Part shown: in pieces, positions 30,626 to 42,881 of the stretch
Layout: each line of letters opens with the position of its first letter
Numbering within the stretch: the stretch's first letter is position 1
DNA from: Glycomyces tritici
Lineage (GTDB): Bacteria; Actinomycetota; Actinomycetes; Mycobacteriales; Micromonosporaceae
Length of the DNA: 64,000 nucleotides
NCBI RefSeq assembly: GCF_030403505.1
Contig: NZ_JAUEMJ010000004.1
Coordinates: 62,001-126,000 of the forward strand
Direction of reading: 5' to 3'
The notes under the pieces: generated by a model
Seen by the model: the letters and a program-made list of their open reading frames with translations, nothing else
Database searches by the model: none
What the model was told of the DNA's origin: nothing
Made by a program: the position numbers and the translations under genes

Positions 30626-31300
30626 TCACAACACGCCGGAAAGAAACCTGCTCATTTCCCCCTCGATCAACCCGGCAAGCGGTAACTCGCCGCTTCCCGC
30701 GCCGGGCTTCCAGAGCACGTCGCCGCCCGGGCTGGCACCTTCGGCGCCGCTTGCGAGCCGTCGATTCGCACAGCGGGCCAGGACGAACAGCAGGTCGGAC
30801 AGGCGGTTGAGGTAGGTGACCGGCACCGGGTGCGTCGTGTCCGGCTCGGCGTCGAGCAGCGCCCACACCGACCGCTCGGCCCGCCGCACCACCGTGCACG
30901 CCTGGTGCAGCAGCGCCGCGCCCGGCGTCCCGCCGCGCAGGATGAACGACCGGAGCGCCTCCAGATCGGCGTTGCACTCGTCGATCCAGCCCTCCAGGCG
31001 CGTCACGTACGAGTCGTCGATGCGCAGCGGCGGGTACTTCGGGTCGGGCGACACCGGCGTCGCGAGGTCGGCGCCCACATCGAACATGTCGTTCTGGACC
31101 GCGAGCAGGATCTCCCGCTCCCGCTCCCCGATCTCGCCCTGGTGCAGGGCGAGCGCCGCGCCGATCACCGCGTTCGCCTCGTCCACGTCCCCGTAGGCCG
31201 CGAGCCGGACATGCGTCTTCGGGACGCGGGAGAAGTCGGCGAGACCGGTCGTGCCGTCGTCGCCGGTCTTCGTATAAATCCTGGTGAGATTGACCGCCAT
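30626..31300 (-). CDS. pduO: Cob(I)yrinic acid a,c-diamide adenosyltransferase, PduO type
   Basis: This is a 224-residue enzyme that transfers the adenosyl group of ATP to cob(I)alamin to form coenzyme B12. The ATP-binding motif TKTGDDGTTGLADFSRV and the C-terminal YLNRLSDLLFVLARCAN block are diagnostic. About 30 extra C-terminal residues follow the last family helix. It is divergent from the acyl-CoA dehydrogenase-like gene, with only 24 bp between starts, so no room remains for a cobalamin riboswitch. Confidence 0.93.
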   Translation of the reverse strand: MAVNLTRIYTKTGDDGTTGLADFSRVPKTHVRLAAYGDVDEANAVIGAALALHQGEIGEREREILLAVQNDMFDVGADLATPVSPDPKYPPLRIDDSYVTRLEGWIDECNADLEALRSFILRGGTPGAALLHQACTVVRRAERSVWALLDAEPDTTHPVPVTYLNRLSDLLFVLARCANRRLASGAEGASPGGDVLWKPGAGSGELPLAGLIEGEMSRFLSGVL

Positions 31301-41230: not shown

Positions 41231-41494
41231 TTAGAGCGGTCCGCGGCCGGAGCGCAGGACGAGCATCGCGATCTGGATGCCGTCGTCGCCGAGGGCGGAG
41301 CGGTACTTCTCGAGGATGGCGCGTTCGCGGTCCAGGACCAGGCGGGTGCCGCCGTTGGCCATGCGGATCTCGCCGACGCGCTTGGAGACTTCGGCGCGGC
41401 GCTGCCACAGGCGGATGATCTCGGCGTCCAGGGCGTCGATCTCGGTGCGCAGGTCCTGGAGTTCGTCAGGTGCGATTTCGGCGGATGCGGTCAT
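41231..41494 (-). CDS. Chorismate mutase (AroQ-delta type)
   Basis: This is an 87-residue intracellular chorismate mutase that turns chorismate into prephenate for Phe and Tyr synthesis. The family pattern is present: LRTEIDALDAEIIRLWQRRAEVSKRVGEIR, with the Arg and Lys that bind chorismate and the later RERAILEKYR. Its size and location next to pcrA match Rv0948c, which needs DAHP synthase as activating partner. The ribosome binding site AAGGAG is 8 nt from the ATG. A terminator and an aromatic leader peptide lie upstream, which points to attenuation by charged tRNA-Phe/Tyr. Confidence 0.94.
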   Translation of the reverse strand: MTASAEIAPDELQDLRTEIDALDAEIIRLWQRRAEVSKRVGEIRMANGGTRLVLDRERAILEKYRSALGDDGIQIAMLVLRSGRGPL

Positions 41495-41592
41495 CAGGGC
41501 TTCTCCTTAGAGCGATGCGTGTATCGAACTCCGGGCGGTAGCCGCCTCGCGGCGGCGCTGGCGAGCCGTACATTTGCCCAGGCGTGAAAAAA

Positions 41593-41615
41593 GCCCCGGG
41601 CTGTTCGCCCGGGGC
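41593..41615 (-). terminator. Attenuator terminator before chorismate mutase
   Basis: On the minus strand GCCCCGGGC and GCCCGGGGC form a 9-bp stem with a 5-nt loop followed directly by six T residues. It lies after the leader peptide stop and 98 bp before the chorismate mutase ATG. A second stem, GTAGGTCG with CGACCTAC (41618-41647), precedes it. That stem shares bases with an ACGGC/GCCGT pairing that starts just after the Tyr codons, so the two are mutually exclusive. Confidence 0.85.
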
Positions 41616-41630
41616 CGGTAGGTCGGTGTG

Positions 41631-41699
41631 TCAGCGCGACGACCTACGGCTCGGACGGTTCCGGCCGTAGTAAAAGTAAAATCGCGCGCTCTGAGTCAC
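41631..41699 (-). CDS. Aromatic leader peptide of chorismate mutase
   Basis: This is a 22-codon ORF starting with GTG. Residues 7-11 read Phe-Tyr-Phe-Tyr-Tyr, five consecutive aromatic codons, in a peptide that is otherwise Arg/Ser-rich. No ribosome binding site is visible; instead a -10 like box CATACT (41706-41711, minus strand) ends 6 bp before the GTG, so the transcript may begin at the start codon (leaderless). Base-pairing segments begin right after the Tyr codons and lead to a T-tracted terminator before the chorismate mutase gene. This is the layout of a ribosome-stalling attenuator for Phe/Tyr supply. Confidence 0.82.
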   Translation of the reverse strand: MTQSARFYFYYGRNRPSRRSSR

Positions 41700-41710
41700 G
41701 CGGCAAGTAT

Positions 41711-41747
41711 GCCACACGCCCGCCGGTGTGACCAGCGGGCGTGTGGC
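41711..41747 (-). terminator. Terminator of the first thioester LPXTG gene
   Basis: A 13-bp stem GCCACACGCCCGC/GCGGGCGTGTGGC with an 11-nt loop lies 25 bp after the stop. It abuts the predicted -10 box of the chorismate mutase leader, so termination of one unit and initiation of the next touch each other. Confidence 0.8.
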
Positions 41748-41771
41748 GTTTGTCGCAGTGTTCAGTCGCTG

Positions 41772-42881
41772 TTAAGCGTCCGAGCCCCAGTCCGCGCGGG
41801 CGGCGCGGCGGCGCATGAGCACCATCGCGGCGACGCCGGCGAGCAGGACCGCGCCGCCGACGGTGGCGACGGTGGTCAGGCTGGAACCGGTGACGGGCAG
41901 CTGCGGCTTCGGGGACTCACTCGGGACCTCGTCGACGGTGATCTCGAAGGGGATCTCGAAGTAGAACTCCTCGGTGAACTCCTCGGCGAGGATGAGGCGC
42001 TGGCCCTCGACGTCGGCGCCGTCGGCGTCGACCGGGACGAAGGTGCGGCCGGCCGGGGTGGTCCATTCGACGATGTCGGTGATGATCGTGACCGATGCGG
42101 TCTCGGCCTTGTCGAACTTCACGGAGAAGACCTGGCCGTCGGTGAGGGTGGTGAGCTCCTCGCCGTTCTCGTCGACGACGGTGGCGCCTTCGGGCTGCTC
42201 GAAGCTGAGCGAGTCGATGTTGGTGTCGACGGTGAACGGGCCGACGGTGGTGCCTTCGACCTTGGCGTCGGTGGCGTCGTAGTCGAAGTAGGGCTCTTCG
42301 GGCTCCTCGACGGGCGCGGAGTTCTCGAGCAGCCAGGCCTGGAGCGCCGGGACGATCTCGTCGGCGACGTCGTCACCGGTCGGGTCGGTGGCGTCGAGGG
42401 TCCAGCCGTCGGTCAGCGACCAGATGGCGGACTGGGTGGCCGCGTAGGCCAGCTGGTCCTGGGTGACGTCGCCGTAGTCGTCGCTCGCCAGGCCCGCCTC
42501 TTCGAGGAGCTCGCCGGCGTTGGTGCCGTCGTAGCCGGCGAGGAGGACGCCGAGGACCTTCGGGAGGTCTTCGACGGGGACGTCGTCCCACGGGCGCTCT
42601 TCGTGGAGGTACTGCTCTTCGAGGTCGACCTCGAGCTGGATGCAGTAGACGGTGCGGTACTCGCCGTCGCCGGTGTCGAGGGCGATCATCGAGGCGTTCG
42701 GCTCCTTCTCCTCACCGCCCGCGGTGCCGTACAGCTCGATGCCGTCGTCCTCGATCACGACGTTGCCGGCGGCGAGGATTCCCGCTTCCTCGTCCTGGGC
42801 TTGAGCGGCGGTGACGCCGGTGAGGCCGAGTGCGACGCCGGCAGCAGCGGCCATCGTCCCTTTCAGGGCTTTGGTCATCAT
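41772..42881 (-). CDS. Thioester-domain (TQXA) LPXTG surface protein 1
   Basis: This is a 369-residue cell-wall adhesin-like protein. A signal peptide ends near AAQA. The thioester domain has Cys80 (TVYCIQLEVD) and Gln150 (YAATQSAIW), the pair expected to form an internal Cys-Gln thioester that can bond covalently to a target. A beta-sandwich domain follows, then the sorting signal LPVTG, a membrane helix and RRRAAR. The protein is very acidic. A paralogue lies directly upstream. Sortase must act in trans, since none is adjacent. Confidence 0.9.
   Translation of the reverse strand: MMTKALKGTMAAAAGVALGLTGVTAAQAQDEEAGILAAGNVVIEDDGIELYGTAGGEEKEPNASMIALDTGDGEYRTVYCIQLEVDLEEQYLHEERPWDDVPVEDLPKVLGVLLAGYDGTNAGELLEEAGLASDDYGDVTQDQLAYAATQSAIWSLTDGWTLDATDPTGDDVADEIVPALQAWLLENSAPVEEPEEPYFDYDATDAKVEGTTVGPFTVDTNIDSLSFEQPEGATVVDENGEELTTLTDGQVFSVKFDKAETASVTIITDIVEWTTPAGRTFVPVDADGADVEGQRLILAEEFTEEFYFEIPFEITVDEVPSESPKPQLPVTGSSLTTVATVGGAVLLAGVAAMVLMRRRAARADWGSDA

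Follow-up and report, generated by a model that had tools for sequence, protein, structure and literature searches.

A candidate ribosome-mediated attenuator with phenylalanine and tyrosine codons upstream of the chorismate mutase gene in Glycomyces and related actinobacteria

The AroR leader located before aroF of C. glutamicum was reportedly described by Neshat et al. in 2014. In the passages cited here, AroR is presented as an actinobacterial attenuator with a Phe-Tyr-Phe run (PMC11802643, PMC4046766), its response being ascribed in one account to Phe and not to Tyr (PMC11802643) and in another to both Phe and Tyr, with the control called translational (PMC7356990). In the cited part of a 2005 survey, the actinobacterial elements reported concern Trp, Cys, Leu/Ilv and ileS, with no further amino-acid biosynthesis pathway represented (PMC1262725), and none of the eight S. 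lividans leaders given in the cited part of PMC8079986 precedes a chorismate mutase (CM) gene. Translation attenuation is described for cysteine genes of M. smegmatis in the passage cited from PMC13236596, and control of the small CM of C. glutamicum is attributed, in that cited from PMC11802643, to complex formation with DAHP synthase together with Phe feedback. No attenuator before CM in actinobacteria was found in the passages of the open-access literature searched.

Here we analyze a stretch of 64,000 nucleotides from Glycomyces tritici, hereafter the window, in which the CM gene is preceded by a short aromatic ORF and a terminator. We conclude that this element is very probably a ribosome-mediated transcription attenuator that ties CM expression to charged tRNA-Phe and tRNA-Tyr. 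An attenuator before CM had been proposed in an earlier sequence-only reading of the same DNA, and the proposal is supported by conservation, by covariation, by the Phe/Tyr codons and by identification of CM with curated models.

Organization and conservation of the leader

The CM encoded in the window (87 aa) scored 98.1 bits with the NCBIfam model NF005894 (cut-off 73) and 80.6 bits with TIGR01808 (cut-off 52.15), and is 97% identical to the CM of G. algeriensis. The leader ORF upstream of it, read on the minus strand, has 22 codons including a GTG start and encodes MTQSARFYFYYGRNRPSRRSSR followed by a stop, residues 7-11 being Phe-Tyr-Phe-Tyr-Tyr, and a CATACT hexamer ends 6 nt 5' of the GTG (Table 1). 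Both features had been pointed out in the sequence-only reading and were confirmed, and its suggestion that the peptide is read from the first base of the transcript gained support from the relatives: with spacings of 5-8 nt allowed, a -10-like hexamer lies 6 nt (61) or 7 nt (62) before the start codon in 123 of the 151 leaders described below, against 1/151 for random starts. With this spacing, transcription would begin on the start codon or right beside it, as in leaderless mRNAs, which fits leaderless translation; the ORF is probably translated without a leader sequence at its own 5' end.

Table 1. Features of the leader and the CM gene in the window, in the direction of transcription
Feature	Position	Strand	Basis
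-10 hexamer CATACT	41706..41711	minus	CATACT/CATAAT 6-7 nt before start codon in 22/22 Glycomyces-type sequences including the window; hexamer at 6/7 nt in 123/151 leaders, control 1/151
Leader peptide ORF, GTG start, probably leaderless	41631..41699	minus	reading and conservation
Control codons TTT TAC TTT TAC TAC (Phe-Tyr-Phe-Tyr-Tyr)	41667..41681	minus	548/755 residues Phe/Tyr and 2 Trp at these positions in 151 leaders; TTT 207/274 Phe codons
Region 1, 5' arm of hairpin 1:2, TACGGC, overlapping the last Tyr codon	41664..41669	minus	fold, covariation
Region 2, antiterminator 5' strand: outer helix CGTCCG 41657-41652, inner GCCGTAGGTCG 41650-41640	41640..41657	minus	stalled-ribosome fold; covariation; 6/9 alignment pairs present in window
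3' arm of hairpin 1:2, GCCGTA	41645..41650	minus	fold, covariation
Region 3, antiterminator 3' strand: inner CGACCTA 41625-41619 and CGGC 41617-41614, outer CGGGCG 41611-41606; overlaps terminator 5' arm	41606..41625	minus	stalled-ribosome fold, covariation
Intrinsic terminator, stem 41616-41592, then T run	41587..41616	minus	terminator scan; covariation; terminator after leader in 134/151 by the script's rule
Shine-Dalgarno-like AAGGAG of the CM gene	41503..41508	minus	sequence
Chorismate mutase, 87 aa	41231..41494	minus	NF005894, TIGR01808

The same strand carries, 72 nt upstream of the leader, the end of a gene for an LPXTG/TQXA-type surface protein. A 15-bp palindrome (CCACACGCCCGCTGG...CCGGCGGGCGTGTGG, 41712-41746) abuts the -10 box on its 5' side and was seen by eye in 21/21 Glycomyces-type loci. 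It varies slightly among them, and the changes in L012 and L018 are compensatory. It could serve either to terminate the LPXTG gene or as an operator that covers the -35 region. Between the terminator and the CM gene, a short repeat like GGCTCGCAAGCGTCGCCGAGAG is present in the window (41546-41567, 3 mismatches) and in L001, L013 and L021, and by eye not in the other relatives; a further copy with 3 mismatches lies at 30738-30759.

The leader ORF was recovered in all 21 Glycomyces-type loci, 20 of them from named Glycomyces and one from a MAG (L020). The aromatic run reads FYFFY in L005, FYLYY in L021 and, one codon shorter, FYFY in L013, and the length differences downstream of the run amount to one codon except in L012, which carries one inserted base and whose ORF stops at a TAG inside the hairpin. 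The pattern CGATTTTACTTTTACTACGGC, with up to 3 mismatches, occurred once in each of 14 out of 16 genomes and never twice, at places that fit the CM loci; it was not found in G009, where the leader is one codon shorter, or in the Streptomyces genome G016. A general aromatic element repeated within these genomes is not borne out by this single copy per genome.

CM upstream regions were then compared from the order of Glycomyces, which we take to be Mycobacteriales in GTDB (150 genomes, 135 with a match), its family, presumably Micromonosporaceae (61, 60), and its class (98, 24). Among the higher-ranked hits, 172 regions were examined: the window, L001-L022, L065-L116, L139-L218 and 17 class loci. 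A loose rule found a leader in 151 of them, the controls giving 2 (reverse strand) and 5 (shuffled sequence), and a strict rule in 140, with 0 and 1 in the respective controls. By group, the leader is present in 22/22 Glycomyces-type sequences including the window, in 52/52 of L065-L116, 65/80 of L139-L218, 12/17 class loci and 0/1 for L022. Its forms include RFYFYYGTGSPAAVGRA, RFFYGYRxAVPVV, SFFYGHRDPVSVTAG and RFFYGTRTPAPVIA, and, in class-sample genomes of 8-10 Mb, FLFTYGNRPTGCHGRAA. The 21 regions without a leader by rule comprise nine that were read by eye without finding one (eight and L022), four with a variant leader seen by eye (L152, L154, L159, L188) and eight judged by the rule alone. 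In L155, L156, L157 and L160, which have CM without a leader, the CM gene itself seems by eye to start leaderless, so these lineages may have lost their attenuator. The sequence-only reading had held that lack of conservation in relatives would speak against it; what we found is an ORF shared by 21/21 Glycomyces-type and 151/172 order and class regions, a -10 box in 123, and three helices that covary (see below).

Control codons and placement before other enzymes

At the five positions before the conserved Gly, the 151 leaders hold 755 residues: Phe and Tyr account for 274 each and Trp for 2. The step catalyzed by CM leads to Phe and Tyr, that of DAHP synthase to Trp as well. Being Phe and Tyr and almost never Trp, the control codons thus match what CM feeds. 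TTT makes up 207 of the 274 Phe codons at this position; the window leader has two TTT, a codon used for 0/94 Phe codons in five large ORFs of the window, and its steady use may tune stalling. CGA accompanies TTT in the leader (41667-41684), and accounts for 1/200 Arg codons in the same five ORFs.

An alternative that deserves real weight, although we consider it the less probable reading, is that the same attenuator is triggered by Phe limitation only, the Tyr codons being passengers. The precedent would be AroR: for its Phe-Tyr-Phe leader upstream of aroF, a response to Phe but none to Tyr is reported (PMC11802643, passage cited). However, the passage cited from PMC7356990 speaks of control of AroR by both amino acids, and in the CM leaders Tyr is as frequent as Phe at the control position and region 1 includes the last Tyr codon, even if codon counts are not decisive on this point. 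We retain both tRNA-Phe and tRNA-Tyr in the preferred reading.

R1, a covariance model of the element built partly from genomes that were later searched, gave matches with an E-value of 0.001 or lower in 67 of 81 genomes from the order. Its matches of at least 40 bits numbered 60 in 60 genomes, and all 60 lay on the same strand, 1-500 nt upstream of CM. Weaker matches elsewhere were mostly plain terminators; among 12 inspected, three (L318, L321 and L328) were leaders before type I DAHP synthase and nine were not. In 28 genomes, the 510 nt preceding the genes for type II DAHP synthase and prephenate dehydratase held no such leader; an aromatic ORF of a different type was present at four of the DAHP synthase loci.

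At 30 type I DAHP synthase loci of the order, four of them cut short (L344, L346, L351, L356), 11 leader ORFs were counted, for example MQQRFYFWYGYRPGSPRRLVALH followed by a stop. Trp is present in 11/11, a count that rests on our judgement, since four of the 15 ORFs called by the script (L338, L345, L350, L351) were dropped as probable ends of upstream genes and are also those without Trp. The loci with Trp-containing aromatic leaders before type I DAHP synthase in this order are L330-L337, L357-L359 and L318. As judged from these sequences, codon content follows the pathway step, with FY at CM and FWY at type I DAHP synthase, which offers a natural experiment on control codons and pathway logic.

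In a sample of the phylum, 31/119 genomes matched R1, with leaders such as MKRYFWFFGTSGSPEADAS followed by a stop, some above 40 bits. Inspection of 15 of these loci revealed an aromatic leader in nine (L288 at CM, and eight others) and none in L301, L302, L304 and L305; L296 and L307 were cut at the contig end, and the region could not be read properly there. FWFFG-type and related leaders were noted in L291, L292, L294, L295, L297, L299, L300 and L303. DAHP synthase lies directly downstream of four of the eight non-CM leaders (L291, L294, L295, L300), and two of these enzymes, checked with NCBIfam as 130-residue fragments, scored below the curated cut-offs. Five of the phylum genomes with non-CM leaders form a small class of their own, in which 5/5 match. 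We tentatively suggest, as an idea that we rate below even chances, that a single ancient RNA architecture, made up of aromatic codons, a Tyr/Gly hairpin, an antiterminator and a terminator, may have persisted across the actinobacterial phylum as a sensor of aromatic amino acids. It would have come to precede different enzymes, its codons being adjusted to the step: Phe and Tyr before CM, and Phe, Trp and Tyr before type I DAHP synthase. If so, the sensed amino acids could be read straight from the leader.

Competing RNA structures and the proposed mechanism

The leader RNA of the window folds at -58.2 kcal/mol, compared with -36.4 in shuffles (z = -6.5), and 0/200 shuffles were as stable. The sequence-only reading had called for folding of both alternatives, and both were recovered, hairpin 1:2 in the leader fold and the antiterminator in the fold with a ribosome on the aromatic codons. 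It had proposed ACGGC/GCCGT and GTAGGTCG/CGACCTAC as mutually exclusive pairings before a 9-bp terminator stem followed by T. All three elements are present and the two pairings do exclude each other, but GTAGGTCG/CGACCTAC alone does not exclude the terminator; that is done by the outer helix CGTCCG/CGGGCG, in which it is nested and which occupies the terminator 5' arm. As the sole antiterminator, GTAGGTCG/CGACCTAC was rejected, because in the sequences that we take to be Micromonosporaceae-type the inner pairing ends ~5 nt before the terminator and the two can coexist. With both helices, the window antiterminator comprises 17 bp (41657-41652 with 41611-41606, and 41650-41640 with 41625-41614 less one bulged base). 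The terminator stem was given by the scan as 10 pairs, 9 of them G-C, followed by T.

In the aligned leaders, the 5' arm of hairpin 1:2 is TAC-GG-C/G right after the aromatic run and the 3' arm is GCCGTA or similar, and the loop and 3' side of this hairpin are complementary to CCCCGG..., the 5' arm of the terminator. The facing segments share one alignment register: GGACTCCGG with CCGGAGTCC in one group, GGAGTCCGG with CCGGGCTCC in another and CGTCCG with CGGGCG in the window. By the script's rule, a terminator follows 134 of the 151 leaders, the other 17 including some wrong picks, and the distance from the leader stop to the terminator stem has a median of 14 nt (IQR 12-16, n=134). A search of 41480-41780 against Rfam gave no family above its gathering threshold, the best below it scoring 19.7 bits against 112.

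Covariation was scored in 66 of 76 non-redundant sequences (alignment A1), the 76 having been drawn from 134 spans at <90% likeness; ten were left out for doubtful register or terminator call (L088, L107, L123, L124, L126, L127, L149, L153, L197, L199), a choice that can flatter the result. All three helices exceeded their shuffled values, with 0/500 shuffles reaching the score in each case: hairpin 1:2 at 0.305 versus 0.169, the antiterminator at 0.236 versus 0.128, and the terminator at 0.103 versus 0.068. All three scores drop when the register is slid. Pairs changed on both sides were above shuffles for the terminator (29/500 reach it), and not for the antiterminator (244/500) or hairpin 1:2 (413/500).

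Furthermore, the region 2:3 duplexes that sequences form with their own partners average -16.2 kcal/mol, compared with -13.92 +/- 0.17 for permuted partners (0/2000, n=142), a test that relatedness inflates. A swap test on disjoint pairs is fairer, although its later pairs are not close relatives: among 70 such pairs, own partners were better in 41, swapped partners in 14 and 15 were tied (Wilcoxon p 1.9e-7), compared with 30 versus 35 for a control segment. Within Glycomyces, for which there are 9 pairs only, the counts were 5, 3 and 1. As bare duplexes in the window, the terminator arm pairs best with the whole leader through a GGCCGG stretch, present in 10/22 Glycomyces-type sequences (-12.2 kcal/mol; -11.0 for CGTCCG).

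We also folded the transcript up to the terminator loop, at equilibrium, with a 26-nt ribosome mask (the size given for Mtb ilvB1 in the cited part of PMC13236596). When the mask was placed two codons upstream of the last aromatic codon, 134/134 sequences had over half of the terminator 5' arm sequestered, as did 132/134 when it was placed one codon upstream; the window gave 0.80 at both positions. The number decreased to 84/134 with the ribosome on the last aromatic codon (window 0.66), to 80/134 at the stop codon (window 0.34), where equilibrium folding gives no clean release, and to 31/134 with no ribosome (window 0.27).

Sequence and comparison show the leader ORF, its -10 box and codon content, three covarying helices and the position before CM; from these we infer the exact transcript start, the stalling, termination and read-through in the cell, and the response to Phe or Tyr limitation. 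Transcription would begin at the GTG or right beside it, and a ribosome would load directly at the transcript's 5' end with no Shine-Dalgarno site involved. When Phe- and Tyr-tRNA are plentiful, the ribosome would clear TTT-TAC-TTT-TAC-TAC and hairpin 1:2 would form, leaving region 3 free, so that the terminator would stop the transcript before the CM gene. When charged tRNA is short, the ribosome would stall on region 1, with which the control codons overlap since the last Tyr codon is its start; the 17-bp pairing of regions 2 and 3 would then take up the terminator 5' arm, and transcription would read into the CM gene. The sequence holds a run of end-product codons, a terminator, an antiterminator that excludes it, control codons overlapping region 1 and a gene in the sensed pathway, which are sequence-level features of the attenuator class; for a ribosome at the stop codon, the folds favour the terminator less clearly.

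After the T run, L002-L012 and others carry CAGGGC, which in many Glycomyces (judged by eye, uncounted) matches the complement of GCCCTG at the start codon of CM, and in the window does so incompletely; this pairing is a possible second control layer.

The sequence-only reading had extended the control to pcrA, and hence to DNA repair, seeing no clear terminator before that gene. In the window, as in 21/21 Glycomyces-type loci, pcrA does come after CM in the same orientation. However, the argument missed a -10 box of pcrA's own: a CATAAT hexamer lies 8-9 nt 5' of its ATG in the window and in 20 of the 21 loci, the remaining one (L008) being unreadable in the 300 nt examined. The suggestion is weak because of this box; we rejected pcrA as a likely target and regard its control by the attenuator as improbable.

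Arrest of the ribosome by the leader peptide as a nascent chain, rather than by uncharged tRNA, could be proposed from the (F/Y)YG motif and conserved C-terminal part that recur over the order. We consider it very unlikely: the conserved residues after Tyr are explained by the arms of hairpin 1:2, the RNA covaries while the peptide changes (GTGSPAAV, GYRxPVPV, GNRTPAPV), and F and Y interchange (FYFYY, FYFFY, FFYY, YYFYY). Finally, a terminator that serves the LPXTG/TQXA gene, which ends so close upstream, or that yields a small RNA, with the ORF incidental, is hardly credible even though terminated leader RNA would be made in any case, as leader, -10 box and terminator occur together before CM across the order and class set (detection controls 2 and 5 of 172), the upstream gene having been compared within Glycomyces only. 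Under the attenuator reading, a trans-acting role of the terminated leader RNA is possible.

Comparison with known systems

Elements of this kind are known; the CM gene as a target and the breadth of occurrence appear to be new within the open-access literature searched. The element offers a concrete, testable mechanism for control of the Phe/Tyr branch point in a large actinobacterial group, many members of which are antibiotic producers. In E. coli, the pheL-pheA attenuator likewise combines a leader containing Phe codons with competing hairpins, and the enzyme is a chorismate mutase-prephenate dehydratase. In contrast, the Glycomyces element has a leaderless-type start, Phe and Tyr codons in equal share and a monofunctional CM.

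AroR, discussed in PMC11802643 in passages that also mention pheL-pheA, is similar in being an actinobacterial leader peptide with Phe-Tyr-Phe that attenuates an aromatic amino-acid gene. It differs in position, before DAHP synthase at the first common step rather than before CM at the Phe/Tyr branch. Streptomyces trpL and other actinobacterial leaders share short ORFs with runs of the cognate residue, several of them leaderless, and terminators (PMC1262725, PMC8079986, parts cited). The mycobacterial leaderless polycysteine attenuators (Canestrari et al. 2020, as cited in PMC9094748) resemble the CM leader as leaderless short ORFs that act as amino-acid sensors in an actinobacterium, the amino acid there being cysteine. 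To the actinobacterial list of Trp, Cys, Leu/Ilv and ileS given in the cited part of the 2005 survey (PMC1262725), the leader upstream of CM would add Phe and Tyr.
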